Position numbers and translations under genes: made by a program. From Deltaproteobacteria bacterium (lineage in GTDB: Bacteria > Desulfobacterota > DSM-4660 > Desulfatiglandales > Desulfatiglandaceae), in the NCBI GenBank assembly GCA_021737785.1, contig JAIPDI010000002.1, positions 1-64,000 of the forward strand: a stretch of DNA of 64,000 nt, given 5' to 3'. Of this stretch, positions 13,316-25,482 are shown in pieces (position 1 is the stretch's first letter; every line of letters begins with the position of its first letter). Below the pieces are notes generated by a model, which saw only the letters and a list, made by a program, of their open reading frames with translations, ran no database searches and was not told where the DNA came from.

Positions 13316-13918
13316 ATGCAGAGAGATAACCGAGTCTATCTTATACGACATGGCCAGGTGGCAGGATATGAGAATTTTCCAGTATATGGCCATACCGATG
13401 TGAATCTGACGGACGTGGGGATTCTCCAGATGAAACAGGTGGCCGAACGCCTCCGTCTCACGGAACTCAAGGCGATCTATTCGAGCGACTTGATCCGATC
13501 TGCAACCAGTGCACGTCTAATCGCCCGCCATCATGATGTACCGGTTTATTTTTTGCCCGAGCTGCGGGAGATGAAATTCGGCCAATGGGAAGGCCTGACC
13601 CTGACGGACATTCGAACCCGTTTTCCAGAGGAGCTGCAAAAAAGGGAGGATGATCTGATAAACTACAGGGCCCCCGGCGATGGGGAATCCATCGCTGATT
13701 TGGCCGCGAGAATTGAAGCGGTTTTTGAGCGCATCCGTGCCGAGCAGCAGGGAAACAACGTGGTCATTTCAGCCCACGGCGCCGTCAACCGGATCATCCT
13801 CTGCAGGGCTATGGGCTTGAATCTCGAACGGATGTTCAATATCCACCAGGCATATGGCTGTCTTAACATCATCGATTATTTTCCCGACACCACTCTGGTG
13901 CGGCTGATGAACGGTTAG
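13316..13918 (+). CDS. Histidine phosphatase family protein (phosphoglycerate mutase-like)
   Basis: Branch-1 histidine phosphatase of 200 residues. The catalytic RHG motif is LIRHGQ (R11-H12-G13); the proton donor Glu lies in ELREMKFGQWEG and the second catalytic His in VVISAHGAVNR. The N-terminal YGHTDVNLTDVGILQMKQVAERL matches the CobC/GpmB group, so alpha-ribazole-5-phosphate phosphatase is one candidate, but no other cobalamin nucleotide-loop gene is adjacent. The ATG lies 8 nt after a consensus -10 box, which suggests a leaderless transcript. An in-frame start further downstream would cut off the RHG motif, so the ATG at 13316 must be close to the true start. Confidence 0.9.
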   Translation: MQRDNRVYLIRHGQVAGYENFPVYGHTDVNLTDVGILQMKQVAERLRLTELKAIYSSDLIRSATSARLIARHHDVPVYFLPELREMKFGQWEGLTLTDIRTRFPEELQKREDDLINYRAPGDGESIADLAARIEAVFERIRAEQQGNNVVISAHGAVNRIILCRAMGLNLERMFNIHQAYGCLNIIDYFPDTTLVRLMNG

Positions 13919-14032: not shown

Positions 14033-16195
14033 ATGGGCTCTTCCGAGAACGCGACCAACATCCAGCAACTCCCTCCGACTCCTGATAATTTTCAGGATGT
14101 CCTGGACAAGGCGTCATCTCTCCGGGAACTCGGCCTGAATATAGAAGCGATTGCCGAATACAAGAAGCTCTTTTTCACGCAATGCCAGCCGACAAAGATC
14201 GTCCCGGGTCTCGTGGCGTGCTTTGCCAAGACAAATTCACCCTCCAAGATCATTCAGAAAATAGAAGAATTGGCCGCTCAGTCAGGCATGAGCAGGGCCA
14301 GGCTGGCCCAATTCAGTATCTGCCTCGGGGTCGAGGCGGAAAAAAGGGGGGAAAAAGGTCTCGCCCTGGAGCAGTATAAGGCCGTTTTGGAAAGCGATCC
14401 GGAGAACATTCAACTCAGGGAAAAAATCGATCAATTGAATCCAAAATCTGCTCTCACGTCAAGATATGCCTACCTCCTTCAAAACGCATTGGTGACTGCC
14501 GACCAGTTGCAGAAGGCCCTCTCTTTGTCGAAAAAGTCAAACAAGAGTGTCGAGTGGGTCCTCATACAGGAATTCAAGATACGCAAAAAAGAGGTGGGAA
14601 GATCTCTCTCCCTCTTCTACGGATGTCCTTTCAGGACCTTTGATCCCGAGGTTCCCGTACCTGTGGAACTCATCGGCAGTCTGAAAAAACCCTTTCTCCT
14701 GCATGACATGTGGGTGCCGCTGGGCTGGAGCCAGAAAGGGGTGGAGATACTTATCGACGACCCTGGAGATCTCAGAAAAACAGGTCTGATCAGGGGACTC
14801 ACAAAGACAAAAAGAATCCATTTTTCTGTGGCAATCAAAGAAGATATCAAGGCATTCATCCGATATTTCTTTGATAGAAAGACCGAAGATTCCATAAAGG
14901 ACATGGTCGACGAACTCGATCTTATCCCGGACATCTCTTTTGAAGAAGACGAGGATGAAAAAGAGATGGACATGGAGGAGAAAGTCGATGAATCCTCAAG
15001 CCAGGTGGTAAGGCTGGTGGACCAGGTCATCGTCACCGCCCTTAGAAGAAACGCCTCGGACATCCATATTGAACCCTCTCCGGTGACCAACAAGACGGGG
15101 ATCCGTTTTCGTTTGGACGGGGTGTGTCAGGAATATCTTCAGGTCCCCAACACCTTGGCAAGAGGGCTCCTCTCCAGGTTGAAAATCATGGCCGGCCTGG
15201 ACATCGCCGAAAGACGTCTTCCTCAGGACGGCAAGATCAAATTCAGGAGAAAGGGGATTCCCTCCCTCGATCTTCGTCTGGCGACGCTGCCCACTGCGGG
15301 TGGACATGAAGATGCGGTACTGCGGCTCCTGGCGGCCTCCGGGGCGCTGAAATTGGAGGATATGGGACTGAGCGAACGGAACATGAACGTCATGAAAAAG
15401 ATCCTTGTTCAGCCCTACGGGCTCATCCTGGTGGTGGGCCCGACAGGTTCCGGAAAAACGACCACCCTCCATTCGGCCCTCGGGTATATCAACAAACCCG
15501 GCGTAAAAATATGGACCGCGGAAGATCCGATAGAAATCACACAACCGGGGCTGCGGCAAGTGGAGGTCAAACCCAAGATCGGCCTTGACTTCGCGAGGGT
15601 GATGCGTGCGTTTCTGCGGGCAGATCCCGATGTCATCATGATCGGCGAAATGCGGGACAACGAAACCGCATCCATCGGAATAGAAGCATCGCTGACCGGT
15701 CACCTCGTCTTCTCCACGCTCCACACCAACAGCGCGCCCGAGACGGTTACCAGGCTCCTGGACATGGGGCTGAACCCTCTTAATTTCTCAGACGCACTGC
15801 TTGGAATACTGGCTCAGAGACTTGTCAGAAAACTCTGTCCCCATTGCCGCAAGGCCTATCATCCTTCGCCGGATGAATTCGAGGAACTCGAACTGGCATA
15901 CGGCAAAGCCGATTTCGCAAGGCTGGAAATTGAATACACGCCGGATCTTATCATTTATCGTCGTTCCAAATGTGATTTGTGTTCAGGAACCGGTTATAAG
16001 GGGAGAATGGCGATCCATGAGCTGCTGGAGGGTACGCCGGCCATTAAAAGACTGGTCAAAAAGGAGGCCCCCACAGATCAAATATTTGCGCATGCGGTGA
16101 AGGAAGAAATGACCACCTTAAAACAGGACGGCATCAGCAAGGTTCTGTCAGGACTCACTGACATGGCTGAGGTACGCAGGGTGTGTATCGGTTGA
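14033..16195 (+). CDS. PilB/GspE-type secretion or pilus assembly ATPase
   Basis: Hexameric ATPase of the type II secretion/type IV pilus class. Residues 20-135 look helical and TPR-like. About 141-285 resembles an MshEN/T2SSE-N domain (LLQNALVTADQLQKAL). Next comes an acidic linker (303-320), then the catalytic core with ASDIHIEP (341-348), AERRLPQDGKIKFR (392-405), Walker A GPTGSGKT (469-476), the Asp box and Walker B (DPDVIMIGEMRD, 531-542) and the His box (GHLVFSTLHTNS). The C-terminal zinc site CPHC...CDLC is intact. No pilC, pilM-Q or gsp genes follow; a chemosensory block does. The start may be TTG/ATG-variable because no strong Shine-Dalgarno is visible. Confidence 0.9.
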   Translation: MGSSENATNIQQLPPTPDNFQDVLDKASSLRELGLNIEAIAEYKKLFFTQCQPTKIVPGLVACFAKTNSPSKIIQKIEELAAQSGMSRARLAQFSICLGVEAEKRGEKGLALEQYKAVLESDPENIQLREKIDQLNPKSALTSRYAYLLQNALVTADQLQKALSLSKKSNKSVEWVLIQEFKIRKKEVGRSLSLFYGCPFRTFDPEVPVPVELIGSLKKPFLLHDMWVPLGWSQKGVEILIDDPGDLRKTGLIRGLTKTKRIHFSVAIKEDIKAFIRYFFDRKTEDSIKDMVDELDLIPDISFEEDEDEKEMDMEEKVDESSSQVVRLVDQVIVTALRRNASDIHIEPSPVTNKTGIRFRLDGVCQEYLQVPNTLARGLLSRLKIMAGLDIAERRLPQDGKIKFRRKGIPSLDLRLATLPTAGGHEDAVLRLLAASGALKLEDMGLSERNMNVMKKILVQPYGLILVVGPTGSGKTTTLHSALGYINKPGVKIWTAEDPIEITQPGLRQVEVKPKIGLDFARVMRAFLRADPDVIMIGEMRDNETASIGIEASLTGHLVFSTLHTNSAPETVTRLLDMGLNPLNFSDALLGILAQRLVRKLCPHCRKAYHPSPDEFEELELAYGKADFARLEIEYTPDLIIYRRSKCDLCSGTGYKGRMAIHELLEGTPAIKRLVKKEAPTDQIFAHAVKEEMTTLKQDGISKVLSGLTDMAEVRRVCIG

Positions 16196-16207
16196 TGCGT
16201 TTTTCCT

Positions 16208-16236
16208 AAGGCGGCCTGACTGCCGCAACCAAACAG
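16208..16236 (-). repeat. Partial copy of the dispersed GCGG-CCGC palindromic repeat
   Basis: The string AAGGCGGCCTGACTGCCGC, then AACCAAAC, is the reverse complement of the 3' part of the repeat seen in full at 33485-33534. It sits between the ATPase stop codon and the large dispersed element. Confidence 0.6.
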
Positions 16237-16251
16237 GTTTCACCTATGGAC

Positions 16252-16481
16252 GCCCGTGGGGGTCTCTGCCCAAGAGCTGCAATAAAATGCGGTCGTATCG
16301 TTCGGCGGCCGCCCCCGGGCTCTGAATAATGTTTACGGAAAGGCAGCAAGGACATACCGTCCCATGAAAGTCTGTACTTGGGGCTGGAACAGACTGTATT
16401 GTAAAGCCCTGCTGCCGTCCCCAGGAGCTGTATTCGGTTTTTGTCCCGCCTCCTGGGCGGGAGGCAGAGCCCCCCACGGGC
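16252..16481 (+). repeat. Dispersed structured element, copy 2 (complete)
   Basis: A complete 230-nt copy. Its ends are near-perfect inverted repeats: 16252-16270 and 16463-16481 pair at 18 of 19 positions. The interior is about 97% identical to copy 1. It lies in the 417-nt gap between the ATPase and response-regulator genes. An ORF can be drawn through it from 16364 in frame with the regulator, but the regulator has its own ribosome binding site at 16613, so this region is taken as non-coding. It could be a MITE-like element or a structured RNA. Confidence 0.85.
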
Positions 16482-16612
16482 AAACTTCTTCGCACGTTGC
16501 AGAGAAGTTACAGACAAAGAGTCTAATTTCGGTTTGCAGATTGCGGACGACATTGAATCCTGAACATCGGACCAGCCCCGCATCCAATCGTCAATTCAGT
16601 GAGGGGGGAAAC

Positions 16613-17404
16613 ATGCCAAGACGGGCCCTGGTTGTGGACAACGATTTTTTCTTTGTCGACTTCCTTGAAAAGCTCCTTCAAAAGAGGGGATACCGGGTTA
16701 CAAAGGCCTATGACGGCAAGGAGGGGTTGTTGGAACTTGAAAACGGACCCTTCGATATCCTCTTTGCAGATCTGATCATGCCCAAGATAGACGGCCTCCA
16801 ATTCATCAGGATCGCCCGCAGGAAGTACTCGGATCTGAATTTTCGGATTGTTGCCGTATCCGGGAGCGTTATAGAGCAACTGGATGAGCTTTCGGACACA
16901 GAGGCCGACTGGTTTGTCGCAAAAGGGCCCTTCGAACAGATGGAAATGCAGATCAATGACCTCCTGGATCAGATGGAATCCGGAGGCATTTCACGCAAGG
17001 ATGCGAGCAGGTTCCTCGATTCGGGCGTTCTCTACCCCCGGCAGGTTACAGGTGAATTGATCGAAACCCTCAACTTCCAGAAGGCCGTCATTGAAAGCAT
17101 CGGCCTGGGCGTACTGGTGGTTGACAAAGATGCTCGGGTCATCAATGCCACGTCCCGGGCGCTCGAGATCCTGAACGCCTCTCCCGGAGATATCCTCAAC
17201 AAACATATCGTTTCTCTCTTCCCCCTCGAGGAGCGGCCGTATCTGACCGACGCCCTCAAGGCGGTCGCCCGGAATCTCGGGCTCAGGAAAGTCTGTCTCA
17301 ACATTGTCTTCGACGCCAAGGGCGCGCGGTTGACGATCTCGCTCTTGAAATTGGGGAAAACCATCGCCGGGTGGATCGTTGCCATGGAGGAAACAAACCA
17401 GTGA
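16613..17404 (+). CDS. Response regulator with PAS domain (REC-PAS)
   Basis: A 263-residue cytoplasmic signalling protein. The receiver domain (about 1-120) has acidic residues D9 and D11 in VVDNDF, the likely phosphoacceptor D53 in FADLIMPKIDG, and a conserved Lys in WFVAKGPFE. A PAS domain follows (about 150-255: IESIGLGVLVVDKDARVINAT). There is no DNA-binding or enzymatic output domain. The ATG at 16613 is chosen because GAGGGGGGAA precedes it and upstream codons run through a repeat. Its TGA overlaps the GTG of the next gene, so the chemosensory genes are translationally coupled. It probably accepts phosphate from the CheA at 19055. Confidence 0.92.
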   Translation: MPRRALVVDNDFFFVDFLEKLLQKRGYRVTKAYDGKEGLLELENGPFDILFADLIMPKIDGLQFIRIARRKYSDLNFRIVAVSGSVIEQLDELSDTEADWFVAKGPFEQMEMQINDLLDQMESGGISRKDASRFLDSGVLYPRQVTGELIETLNFQKAVIESIGLGVLVVDKDARVINATSRALEILNASPGDILNKHIVSLFPLEERPYLTDALKAVARNLGLRKVCLNIVFDAKGARLTISLLKLGKTIAGWIVAMEETNQ

Positions 17405-18660
17405 ATCGAACGAGCATAAAAAACAAGCTGATTCTAAGCTTTCTGGCACTGCTCTTGATTGTCATGGTGGTTGTCGGCGCTACCCACCAGTTTACGGATG
17501 ACGTTATCACGGCCCTAGGCATCTCCGTGGCGTTGGCCCTATTCGCTGGGATTATCTTCGGAGGCATTTTTTCAAAATCCATCGTAAAACGGTTGAACAG
17601 TCTGAGCAGCGTTGCCAGGGAGATCAGCCATGGAGATCTTTCAAAGGATATCCCCTTTCTATCCAGTGACGAAATCCGAGATCTGGAAGAGGTCTTTGCT
17701 GCGATGGTCAATGATCTGAGGGGCATTATTTCTGAAATACAGCAGGTCTCCGCCCAAATAGAAAAGACAGGCAGGGAACTCGGCATCCAGATAGACAAGG
17801 TTCTGATCAACAGCCGGGAAATCGACGAATCTGCGCTGGCAATTGCCAAGGGCTCGGAAACCCAGAGCCTCATCATTCAAAAAACCTCCCTGGTCCTTGA
17901 CAGGAGTCTGGAGCAGATGGAGGATGCGGCCACCCAGTCGGCCCGGACCGCATCCAAGGCCAACGACGCACGGCTCAAGACCGAAACCGGTGAAGCCAAC
18001 GCCCGCGAGACCTTGCACTATCTGGAAGAGGTCCTCAAACAGATGGGGGGAAATGCGGATCCGGTTTACCGGTTGTCCGGCAAGGTGGAAAAAATCAAGA
18101 TGGTCATGAGCGTCATAGAAGAACTCTCCAGAAAAACGGATCTCCTTTCCCTGAACGCTTCCATCGAAGCCACAAGGGCCGGAGAAATGGGAAAGGGATT
18201 TGCCCTTGTGGCCAACGAGATACGAAACATGGCCGAAAATTCCAGAAACTCATCTCACCAGATCCGGGCGATCGTGGACGATATCTTCGAAGACAACAGG
18301 GCCGTCCTCGAAGCGCTCAAGAAGAGCGAGGAGGATATCAATAAGGGCCGCGGAATCATTCATGGCATCGTGGGCACATTTGGTGAGATGCTCTCCGGGG
18401 TCAAAGAGATATCGAGCGAGGTAAAAGAGGTGGGGGATGCGGCCCGAAAACAGGTAAGAGAAATACGGGGATTATTCAATCAGGTCCAGGAGCTTTCCCG
18501 GCTCGCCCAGGAAAATTTTGTATCCACACAAAAAACCACCATCGGCACCAAAAATCAGAAAGAGGAACTGCAGGAAATCGTCCGAGCGGCAAACGCCTTG
18601 AATGGTCTGTCGCAAAAAATGATGGAGACCCAACAACGATTCAGACTCCGCAGGGCATAG
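17401..18660 (+). CDS. Methyl-accepting chemotaxis-like protein lacking a periplasmic sensor
   Basis: Two transmembrane helices (about residues 9-28 and 37-57) are separated by only some 8-10 residues, so there is almost no periplasmic domain. A HAMP domain (about 58-110) and a coiled-coil signalling domain follow, with the hairpin tip near SLNASIEATRAGEMGKGFA and ANEIRNMAENS. The core tip differs somewhat from classical MCPs, and the protein is short. The GTG start at 17401 overlaps the preceding stop (GTGA). The lack of an external sensor suggests that it reads membrane state or a partner protein, perhaps the PAS domain of the neighbouring regulator; that is inference. Confidence 0.88.
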   Translation: MNRTSIKNKLILSFLALLLIVMVVVGATHQFTDDVITALGISVALALFAGIIFGGIFSKSIVKRLNSLSSVAREISHGDLSKDIPFLSSDEIRDLEEVFAAMVNDLRGIISEIQQVSAQIEKTGRELGIQIDKVLINSREIDESALAIAKGSETQSLIIQKTSLVLDRSLEQMEDAATQSARTASKANDARLKTETGEANARETLHYLEEVLKQMGGNADPVYRLSGKVEKIKMVMSVIEELSRKTDLLSLNASIEATRAGEMGKGFALVANEIRNMAENSRNSSHQIRAIVDDIFEDNRAVLEALKKSEEDINKGRGIIHGIVGTFGEMLSGVKEISSEVKEVGDAARKQVREIRGLFNQVQELSRLAQENFVSTQKTTIGTKNQKEELQEIVRAANALNGLSQKMMETQQRFRLRRA

Positions 18661-18663
18661 GGC

Positions 18664-19065
18664 ATGGATTGTTTCATTTTTGAGGCGGCAGGAAAATATC
18701 TGGGGATTGAGGCCCGGTACATCTACCGCGTTGTGGACGATGCAAAACCGGCCCCTGTTCCCCTCCTCCCCCCCCCTCATATAGGGATCATCTATGACAG
18801 GGGGGACCTGTTTGATGTCATCGATGTGGGGCGGCTCCTGGGAGATGAGCGCCCTTCCCCGTCCGATAATAAGACGCCTTATGTGATCCTCTTGAAATGG
18901 GATCACCGGAAACTGGGCCTGATCCCGGACCGGATCGCAGGAATAAAATGGATTCAGGATACAGACCCCTCCCAGACCGTCTTCACCAGGGAAGGATATA
19001 CCATTCAAATGATCACTCCCGGGGAAATCTGGAAGATGCTCTCGGACCTGCCCTATGGACATTGA
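18664..19065 (+). CDS. CheW-like coupling protein
   Basis: A 133-residue protein with a single CheW fold: FEAAGKYLGIEARYIYRVV at the start, IGIIYDRGDLFDVIDVGRLLG in the middle (the conserved R-G-x2-hydrophobic-x-V/I-D-L segment of CheW) and VILLKWDHRKLGLIPDRIAGI later. It would link the MCP-like protein to CheA. It starts 3 nt after the MCP stop and its end overlaps the CheA start by 11 nt, so this is a tight operon. Confidence 0.85.
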   Translation: MDCFIFEAAGKYLGIEARYIYRVVDDAKPAPVPLLPPPHIGIIYDRGDLFDVIDVGRLLGDERPSPSDNKTPYVILLKWDHRKLGLIPDRIAGIKWIQDTDPSQTVFTREGYTIQMITPGEIWKMLSDLPYGH

Positions 19066-20629
19066 CAAGTACAAGAGGATCTTCGTACAGGAATCCGGCA
19101 AGTATCTGCAGGAACTGAATACGATCCTCATCAGGGTGGAAAAAGATCTCCGTAACCGGGACCTCTGGAGCGACATCCACGGCAAAATTCACTCCATCAA
19201 GGGAATGGCCCGGGCGCTCAGCCTGGATACGGTTTCCAACCTGTGCCATTCCATGGAGGCATGGGCCAAGGAGTTTCAAGGGGAGAGCAGCACGGCAACG
19301 GCCGATGCCGTTCAGGTACTGCTGGACGGCGCAGAGCTGCTGAAGGGGCTGGTGGCCGCAACGACCGACGGCGCCACGGTTGAAACTTCACAGCAGCTCG
19401 AGAGGATTGAAGCACTGCTGACAAAACACCCCGGCGAGCTGGTGGACGAGATACCGCCTGACCATACGCGTCCCGTTTCTGCTCCCTCCAGTATTGATCG
19501 GATCCGTGTCGAATATTCGTTGATCGAAGAACTCCTTGGCCGATCTCAGGAAATCATTCTACTGGAGAAAACCCTCCCTCCCCTTTCTCAGGATCAGATA
19601 TCATCCGGCCTGAGAAGCTGGATCGACCATTACATCTCCATGTTGAGAGGTCTTCACTTCCAGTTGTCCCGATTGCGGCTGATGCCGGTGAATGACTTTA
19701 TCTCCCTCTTTGAAAAGACCGTCCGGGATCTGGCCAGGACATACGGCAGGGAGGTAACCCTTGAAATCTCCGGGGGTGAACTTCAGGTGGATATCGGGCT
19801 CATGGAACGGTTGAGAGAGCCCTTCCTGCACCTCTTGAGAAATGCCGTGGCCCACGGCATCGAGCCACCCGATGAACGGGAAAAAACCGGCAAAAGGCGT
19901 GAGGGAAAGATCGTTTTTGGGGCGGAAAAACGGCGAGACAGCCTGGTATTAACGGTGAGAGACGATGGCAGAGGCATCGATCGAACCACGATTGAACGCT
20001 ACCTCAGGGACACGCTGGGGATGTCAGACCAGGAAATATCCGGCATGCCGGATGAACAGATTCTGGGTACCATCCTGCGGGTGGATTACTCCTCTGCAGC
20101 CGAGACGACTCAACTCGCAGGAAGGGGGATCGGGATGGATGTGATCGCCAGTTCCATCGAGTATCTGAACGGGTCCATGACCATTCATTCACAACCCCTC
20201 GAAGGAACGGAGTTTGTCATCGCGCTTCCCCTCTCGCTTTCCATCATGTATGCAATCGTGTTTGAATTAGGACCATACACCCTCGCCGTACCCACCTCCC
20301 ATGTGGCATCGATTGAGAAAATGGAAATCCCGTCCACAGGTGCAGGCGGGGAGGTTTATGATCTGGGGGACAGACTTGGCATCGGTCCCCATATGAGGAA
20401 CCCGACCCGTATCATCAAGCTCAGACGCCCCCCTTCCATCAACGGCACCCTTCCCGGGGGAACCCCGGATTGTTTTACGGTTGACGCCGTCATCGGCAAT
20501 GTGCCCCTCATGATCATGCCCTCGGGGGAACTCCTGGCCAAGGCCGGATCCTTTGCGGGGATCGGAATCATGGAAAACGGCGACATATCCATCCTTCTGG
20601 ATATGGAAAAGGCTTGGGAAATCTCCTGA
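19055..20629 (+). CDS. CheA-type histidine kinase
   Basis: Chemosensory kinase of 524 residues. The Hpt domain contains HSIKGMARAL with phosphoacceptor His at residue 46. A short linker, with no clear P2 CheY-binding domain, leads to a dimerisation helix region, then an HATPase domain with N box HLLRNAVAHGIEPP, G1 DDGRGID, G2 GRGIGMDVIASSIEYLNG, and a C-terminal CheW-like P5 domain. At 524 residues it is shorter than E. coli CheA (654), consistent with P2 loss. No CheY, CheB or CheR is encoded in the block; the REC-PAS protein upstream is the only receiver. Confidence 0.93.
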   Translation: MDIDKYKRIFVQESGKYLQELNTILIRVEKDLRNRDLWSDIHGKIHSIKGMARALSLDTVSNLCHSMEAWAKEFQGESSTATADAVQVLLDGAELLKGLVAATTDGATVETSQQLERIEALLTKHPGELVDEIPPDHTRPVSAPSSIDRIRVEYSLIEELLGRSQEIILLEKTLPPLSQDQISSGLRSWIDHYISMLRGLHFQLSRLRLMPVNDFISLFEKTVRDLARTYGREVTLEISGGELQVDIGLMERLREPFLHLLRNAVAHGIEPPDEREKTGKRREGKIVFGAEKRRDSLVLTVRDDGRGIDRTTIERYLRDTLGMSDQEISGMPDEQILGTILRVDYSSAAETTQLAGRGIGMDVIASSIEYLNGSMTIHSQPLEGTEFVIALPLSLSIMYAIVFELGPYTLAVPTSHVASIEKMEIPSTGAGGEVYDLGDRLGIGPHMRNPTRIIKLRRPPSINGTLPGGTPDCFTVDAVIGNVPLMIMPSGELLAKAGSFAGIGIMENGDISILLDMEKAWEIS

Positions 20630-25150: not shown

Positions 25151-25238
25151 TGGTGCCGGAGGTCGGAATCGAACCGACACGATCGCAAGGATCACTGGAT
25201 TTTGAGTCCAGCGCGTCTACCAGTTTCACCACTCCGGC
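25151..25238 (-). tRNA. tRNA-Leu (anticodon CAA)
   Basis: An 88-nt class II tRNA with encoded CCA. Acceptor stem GCCGGAG pairs with CTCCGGC; the D arm is GGTGAAACTGGTAGACGC; the anticodon stem TGGA/TCCA encloses the loop CTCAAAA with anticodon CAA (UUG codons); a long variable arm and a T arm with GGTTCGATTCC follow. Confidence 0.97.
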
Positions 25239-25406: not shown

Positions 25407-25482
25407 GGGGCTGTAGCTCAGATGGGAGAGCGCATGACTGGCAGTCATGAGGTCAGGGGTTCGATCCCCCTCAGCTCCACCA
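25407..25482 (+). tRNA. tRNA-Ala (anticodon GGC)
   Basis: A 76-nt tRNA with encoded CCA. Acceptor GGGGCTG/CAGCTCC contains the G3-U70 pair that identifies alanine tRNAs. Anticodon stem CATGA/TCATG encloses CTGGCAG, giving anticodon GGC (GCC codons). The T arm is AGGGGTTCGATCCCCCT. Confidence 0.98.

Follow-up and report, generated by a model that had tools for sequence, protein, structure and literature searches.

In Myxococcus xanthus the Dif chemosensory system contains a methyl-accepting chemotaxis protein (MCP), DifA, which, like its counterparts in the Dif-like clusters of Geobacter, has two transmembrane stretches with almost no periplasmic part and is found beside CheW and CheA (PMC5544727, PMC2577667, PMC3945109); the passages of these papers cited here also tie Dif function in M. 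xanthus to the pilus ATPase PilB. DifE, for its part, is described as phosphorylating an orphan regulator, EpsW (PMC4671073, in the passage cited). In another network of this organism PilB is brought to the pole by the Ras-like GTPase MglA together with SgmX, a tetratricopeptide repeat (TPR) protein to which the receiver of FrzS binds, and according to the relevant passages the mechanism by which SgmX affects PilB is unknown, with no direct contact between the two detected (PMC11580455). How a chemosensory or a Ras-like GTPase route reaches the motor of the pilus has yet to be settled for M. xanthus. We have analyzed a stretch of 64,000 nucleotides (the window) from a Deltaproteobacteria bacterium of the Desulfatiglandaceae (positions 1 to 64,000 of contig JAIPDI010000002.1, assembly GCA_021737785.1), in which five genes on the forward strand, between positions 14033 and 20629, code for an ATPase of the PilB/GspE class, a protein made of a receiver (REC) and a PAS domain, an MCP, CheW and CheA. 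The individual parts are already known; in the open-licence literature searched we recognised no description of their built-in combination as an ATPase-REC-PAS-MCP-CheW-CheA unit, nor of such a unit joined by an MglA/MglB-like module as in some relatives. On balance, and judging from sequence comparison, we favour reading the five as a single signalling unit, whose chemosensory core would gate a pilus-type motor by way of the REC-PAS protein.

We have searched two samples, the genome of the window together with 60 relatives (61 genomes) and 395 genomes of the phylum. All counts from these searches are lower bounds, as long lists were cut and the candidates scored per genome were capped, at 24 for CheA and 18 for the ATPase in the first sample, and at three for CheA, six for REC-PAS and two for the ATPase in the second. 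CheA orthologues were found in 14 of the 61 genomes at E ≤ 3.7e-129, clear of all other matches, of which the strongest is at 2.4e-54, and MCP and CheW genes adjoin CheA in every one of them. At 12 of these 14 loci the ATPase, REC-PAS, MCP, CheW and CheA genes follow one another in that order on one strand (in two of the 12, G039 and G032, a contig end cuts the ATPase), and in G003 the contig starts inside the REC-PAS gene. The search for CheA in the phylum gave 12 genomes at E ≤ 1e-75, and two strong matches from outside the taxonomic order and in other families (G284 and G305) again came with the five genes in order. Altogether we find the arrangement at 14 loci with CheA identities of 41–76%. 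They belong to four families, of which two are distant in the phylum. Because the order recurs on one strand in so many loci, the adjacency is not due to chance; the first-pass annotation had warned that it would mean little if relatives carried the ATPase and the che genes apart, and they are kept together in 12 of the 14 close loci and in the two distant families. That the five are mere neighbours with no common function, as the absence of the MCP, CheW and CheA genes (the che cassette) from many ATPase loci might suggest, is given almost no weight in the face of this conservation. Six weaker CheA matches (277–312 bits) showed no ATPase match in their loci (L118-L123, that of G396 being only 5.2 kb long), and two of them (G215 and G396), which come with a REC protein, MCP, CheW and CheA, are perhaps distant cousins without the motor.

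The content of the locus predicted by the first-pass annotation was confirmed by Pfam. The MCP (17401..18660; HAMP 42.2, MCPsignal 110.1 bits) has no sensor domain. Two hydrophobic stretches with some 8–12 residues between them are followed by HAMP in 14 of 14 orthologues, read by eye. The first-pass annotation had called the receptor near-sensorless, and having no sensor domain it must receive its signal via the membrane or some other protein. Both in this layout and in length (419 amino acids here, 413 in DifA according to the passage cited) it resembles the Dif receptor. From the end of HAMP to the start of the signalling domain there are 79 residues, 65 in the other MCP of the genome that was tested and 83 in DifA, but also 82 in the 40H receptor Mcp6 of M. 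xanthus, hence this spacing does not discriminate between class 44H, as in Dif, and class 40H. CheW (18664..19065; Pfam CheW 47.2 bits) is followed by a CheA of 524 amino acids (19055..20629) in the order Hpt (P1), P3 region, HATPase (P4) and CheW-like (P5), with Pfam scores of 44.8 for Hpt, 50.2 for HATPase_c and 22.2 for CheW, the last just below its cut-off of 23.5. Pfam reported neither a P2 nor an H-kinase_dim (P3) model at E 0.1, and the alignment of 14 orthologues leaves after P1 only a short variable linker, to about residue 150; the lack of P2 claimed earlier is thus borne out by both. The phospho-accepting histidine, H46 (19190-19192), is conserved in 14 of 14 orthologues and invariant in alignment A1, which has 12 of the 14 rows (G018, with an unread stretch, and the truncated G022 were left out). 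Likewise, no cheY, cheB, cheR or pilus gene was found locally, by Pfam on nine proteins and by eye on the list of open reading frames (ORFs) between 9000 and 26000. We have considered methylation control by a CheR and CheB of its own and rejected it, neither gene being in the unit and both being in two other chemosensory clusters of the genome, each with its own CheR and one also with CheB; cross-talk from these is possible. The unit differs from Dif in lacking CheY, CheC, CheD and CheR and in having two components built in, REC-PAS and an ATPase resembling PilB, and the likeness is one of architecture, not of a comparison with Dif sequences.

The REC-PAS protein (16613..17404, 263 amino acids; Response_reg 56.6, PAS_4 24.9 bits in Pfam) has its phospho-acceptor set intact (D9, D11, D53, S83 and K104, with the acceptor D53 encoded at 16769-16771). 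D53 is kept in 13 of 13 orthologues linked to che genes and in 8 of 10 from loci without them; alignment A2 of REC-PAS has 19 of 23 rows (G003, G006, G048 and G054 left out). Across the phylum REC-PAS matches of at least 334 bits were found in eight of the 395 genomes, all eight beside a full-length ATPase, six of them with che genes (G000, G001, G011, G039, G284, G305) and two without (G005, G344). REC-PAS is the closest partner of the ATPase. There were also six weaker matches, of 159–239 bits, in five genomes. One of them, a distant relative of 239 bits in G017 (L146:6655-11026, G017:C19), stands beside a large hybrid kinase and not beside this ATPase, to which no full-length match was found in the genome at E ≤ 1e-220.

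The pair is found in the absence of the cassette as well. At the che-less ATPase loci of relatives first fetched, REC-PAS lies beside the ATPase in 10 of 19, and two che-less loci fetched later (G013:C407 and G031:C146) carry a protein related to REC-PAS at 37%; the full-length ATPase loci G032:C296, G004:C250, G059:C354, G026 (in two pieces) and G040:C95 stand outside this comparison of neighbours. A gene of the CysG/HemD type follows CheA in G032 and G011, and the same type of gene is found within 300 bp after REC-PAS in G002 and G025, so MCP, CheW and CheA are missing from these two genomes as a block. In a tree of 30 ATPases and one outgroup, built by a quick method without bootstrap, the presence of che genes needs six changes, at least four of them forced by the starred branches, and 6 of 500 shuffles were equally good. 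The cassette has thus been gained or lost repeatedly. For G002, which nests with G000 and G001, and for G025, the sister of G036, a loss explains the pattern more simply. In G344, whose family code is that of G305, che genes are absent and a hybrid kinase, placed after the genes for GTPases, adjoins the ATPase and REC-PAS, which suggests that the kinase input can be swapped. To judge from these comparisons, the ATPase/REC-PAS pair seems to receive the che cassette as one input that can be replaced.

In the mechanism that we would propose, a Dif-like core of sensorless MCP, CheW and CheA without P2 would control autophosphorylation of CheA at H46, CheA would pass the phosphate to D53 of REC-PAS, and REC-PAS would act on the ATPase, most simply by docking on a TPR domain described below. 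The ATPase so switched or placed would drive a machine of the type IV pilus type, the genes for which would lie in another part of the genome. The flow of information might also run the other way, with the ATPase as the sensor, its nucleotide state being read by the MCP, CheA being switched as a result and REC-PAS giving its output elsewhere, e.g., on exopolysaccharide. In M. xanthus PilB is upstream of Dif, its nucleotide-free form seeming to be the signalling state in the passage cited (PMC5544727), and receptors in which the periplasmic domain is small, DifA among them, are described as probably sensing via other proteins (PMC2577667); the MCP here has no sensor domain either. Such a direction does not predict that the ATPase and REC-PAS stay paired without the cassette, as in the 10 che-less loci and in G002 and G025, and in M. 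xanthus signalling is an additional task of a PilB that works as the motor of the pilus. We regard it as a serious rival by analogy, though a somewhat unlikely one, and feedback both ways is possible. The persistence of the pair without che genes is the reason for preferring the ATPase as the output of the unit.

The ATPase (14033..16195, 720 amino acids) belongs to the T2SSE superfamily (PF00437, 399.5 bits, threshold 24.9) and has the Walker A sequence GPTGSGKTTT. Walker A, the Walker B region, the GE-M-RD residues and four cysteines are invariant among 23 aligned orthologues (alignments A3 and A4 have 23 of 30 rows; G006, G013, G015, G032, G045, G054 and G060 were left out). Like PilB, MshE and GspE it combines this core and its motor motifs with a MshEN-type region (14471..14884; Pfam MshEN 38.1 bits, residues 196-284). 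It differs from them in falling below the curated cut-offs of both the PilB family (NCBIfam TIGR02538, 491.5 against 675.65 bits) and the GspE family (TIGR02533, 475.9 against 630.25 bits), in having no filament encoded alongside, in the loss of the cyclic di-GMP motif and in a TPR-like domain at the N-terminus (residues about 17-135, 14081..14437). For this last domain every one of the 23 orthologues matched TPR_2 at E ≤ 1, the best at 2.2e-7, the protein of the window alone giving 0.0061, under the cut-off. An AlphaFold2 model of the N-terminus has blocks of residues 21-120 at a predicted local distance difference test (pLDDT) of 80–89, and the 50 PDB matches listed for it were read as TPR-fold, the best at E 2.0e-3 and none below 0.001; this model was used for the fold search, the full-length one being poor (mean pLDDT 62.6, predicted template modelling score 0.29). 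Binding of cyclic di-GMP by MshE is given in the passage cited as depending on two RLGxx...LxxxLxxQ motifs (PMC5013675). Here all 30 orthologues have SVE in motif II at the place of RLG and the NCBIfam motif model scores 22.8 against a cut-off of 38, and cyclic di-GMP was rejected as a ligand of this ATPase via MshEN.

Two further explanations turn on these features. The ATPase could be the working PilB or GspE of the organism, regulated by the che genes as in Pil-Chp, where CheA has several Hpt domains and a REC domain and is accompanied by PilG, PilH and homologues of CheR and CheB. Its closest solved chains are PilF/PilB, the motor motifs are intact, and no canonical PilB was seen by eye beside the PilC-like gene of contig C23 or the PilM/N/O/P-like genes of C5. 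Nevertheless we consider this unlikely, as the ATPase misses both curated cut-offs, four other ATPases of the class are present (one of them, on C78, scores higher on the PilB model, 600.1, also below 675.65), no linkage to pilus genes was seen in the compared loci, where only selected neighbours were identified, and the CheA of the unit has a single Hpt and no REC domain, in contrast to ChpA, with no CheY, CheR or CheB beside it. The second explanation does away with the filament: REC-PAS and the ATPase would act in the cytoplasm or at a pole on polysaccharide or polarity, the motor role having been lost. The degenerate MshEN motif, the added TPR domain, the excess of ATPases over platform proteins and the lack of recognised filament genes nearby would all suit it, but the invariant Walker A, Walker B region and four cysteines point to work driven by ATP, and we hold it to be very unlikely.

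We return to the gating of a pilus-type motor and to the machines that could be its target. Elsewhere in the genome (a draft of 5.33 Mb in 96 contigs) there are genes read by eye as PilM/N/O/P-like and type II secretion system-like, and Pfam detects two T2SSF proteins and three secretins; pilus-like genes of the kind that the first-pass annotation advised to look for were thus seen elsewhere, none of them locally. Among the other ATPases, that of C78 (L087:1154-3358) has a C-terminal REC domain, its key residues intact by eye, and is preceded by a REC-GGDEF gene and followed by one for a multi-PAS protein; this fusion makes control of such motors by receivers likely. The one of C62 (L089:223-2595) has an N-terminal GAF domain. 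ATPases like the latter, which match the protein of the window only from about residue 135 at some 50% identity, recur through the relatives. Relatives have in addition PilB-class ATPases of 760–780 amino acids with a C-terminal cyclic-nucleotide-binding domain (L149-L153), detected by Pfam in both of the two tested, the other three having a similar C-terminus by eye. The compact locus also suggests that pilus motors may be multiplied and specialised by input. As for the flagellum, one of the two other chemosensory clusters adjoins genes read by eye as flagellar hook genes, and with these clusters present the unit described here need not serve a flagellum. Of the earlier statement that the pathway controls pili or secretion and not flagella, this latter part is in keeping with the genome, while an output on pili stays conditional. 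A further observation is that the cluster on C5 (L091:4535-15757) has an MCP, CheW, a CheR with TPR, a second CheW, a CheA with three Hpt and a REC domain, CheB and, as output gene, one for a REC-class III cyclase, and resembles Wsp.

For the majority of the relatives compared, the ATPase stands with an MglA/MglB-like GTPase module. Neighbours of che-less ATPases code for a Ras-like GTPase, a Roadblock protein, zinc-ribbon-HAMP, PAS and REC-DUF4388 (PATAN) proteins, and proteins without a name. Among the che-less loci of relatives 15 of 21 have at least one of these genes and nine the GTPase itself; for full-length ATPase loci elsewhere in the phylum the figures are eight and seven of nine. 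Three genomes join the module to the unit. In G010 a run of about 20 kb on one strand goes from Roadblock and GTPase through other module genes and a hybrid kinase to the ATPase, REC-PAS, MCP, CheW and CheA, with one additional unidentified ORF inside. G305 has a compact run of Roadblock, GTPase, c36 and the same five genes, and in G027 the contig begins inside the module and runs on into them. A related GTPase query matched 35 of the 61 genomes, and at E ≤ 1e-40 the GTPase is present in eight of the 14 che-bearing genomes and missing from six. The genome of the window gave no match to the GTPase of the relatives at E ≤ 0.001, in a search made without a positive control. From gene content, what we see in the window is most likely a larger control locus in reduced form, and in relatives the GTPase and the chemosensory kinase would converge on one motor.

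By analogy, the closest functional parallel to this larger locus is the MglA-SgmX-FrzS-SopA network of M. xanthus, in which, as far as the passages cited describe it, a Ras-like GTPase, the Roadblock protein MglB, a TPR part and a receiver protein have a PilB-class ATPase as end point (PMC11580455). The relatives compared here differ in that TPR is fused to the ATPase and all the genes lie in a single locus, whether che genes are among them or not, and the window genome differs further in having no match to their GTPase. Neighbourhoods with MglA-like GTPase genes near PATAN genes have been described before (PMC4316618), the passages cited mentioning neither a PilB-like ATPase nor che genes. 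A wider scheme can tentatively be drawn up, which we consider possible rather than probable: the GTPase module and the Dif-like kinase would act together, in a one-piece counterpart of the network that Myxococcus has dispersed over its chromosome, through the fused TPR dock and REC-PAS on a dedicated spare motor of the PilB type, which would be swapped onto a pilus machine used in common. Were this scheme true, the lineage would hold a set of signal-gated motors (with TPR/REC-PAS, GAF, REC or cyclic-nucleotide-binding parts), each with its own input and all for the same filament. In any case the compact locus, with core, receiver, TPR dock and ATPase as neighbours and the GTPase added in some relatives, lends itself to direct tests of these contacts on few proteins.

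Several observations weigh against a single unit with the motor as its output. In G022 only a remnant-like REC-PAS tail (E 0.16; L059:3010-3358, G022:C47) is found upstream of the MCP before the contig ends, and an intact ATPase and REC-PAS are on a separate contig. Most genomes with the ATPase lack the cassette, which is hence not essential to it, and D53 is replaced in two of the 10 che-less REC-PAS orthologues, by E in G005 and by N in G036b. Correlations of 0.896–0.965 between the pairwise distances of the five proteins are uncorrected for common descent. The genome has five ATPases of the PilB/GspE class for two T2SSF proteins in Pfam, which leaves the machine served by this one ambiguous. 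Finally, a repeat of about 325 bp between the first two genes may split transcription of the ATPase from that of the remaining genes in this organism. Taken as a whole, the interpretation of the first-pass annotation is supported in its synteny and in the intact phospho-acceptor set of REC-PAS, while the wiring, its direction, a feedback through the PAS domain and the output on pili remain conditional.

The copy of this repeat (16203..16527, strand unassigned), identified from matches in the genome and not counted as part of the system, makes up most of the 417 bp that separate the ATPase from REC-PAS; the corresponding gap in G001 is about 140 bp, and the copy would have arrived by insertion. 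The sequence occurs in at least 40 places in the genome, including positions 1-232 of the window, and at least 15 of the 40 strongest matches touch a contig end. It has inverted parts and as RNA folds far better than shuffled versions (z −5.6), and it may be a small mobile element. From REC-PAS through CheA the genes overlap or almost touch. The start of REC-PAS is the ATG at 16613, which corrects the first call, and for the MCP the GTG at 17401 is more likely than the mechanical start at 17371, given its overlap with the stop of REC-PAS (17402-17404) and its agreement with the starts in relatives. Between 13900 and 20800 sites resembling promoters or terminators showed no excess over shuffled sequence, so the borders of the operon are not settled by them. 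In the remainder of the window, which begins at the start of contig C2, two tRNA genes were found at 25407-25479 (forward strand) and 25154-25238 (reverse strand), with no other Rfam family at its gathering score. The flanking neighbour on the upstream side, not counted as part of the unit, is a gene for a CobC-like phosphatase on the forward strand (13316..13918), which reaches 163.0 against a cut-off of 162.9 on the NCBIfam model for alpha-ribazole phosphatase.

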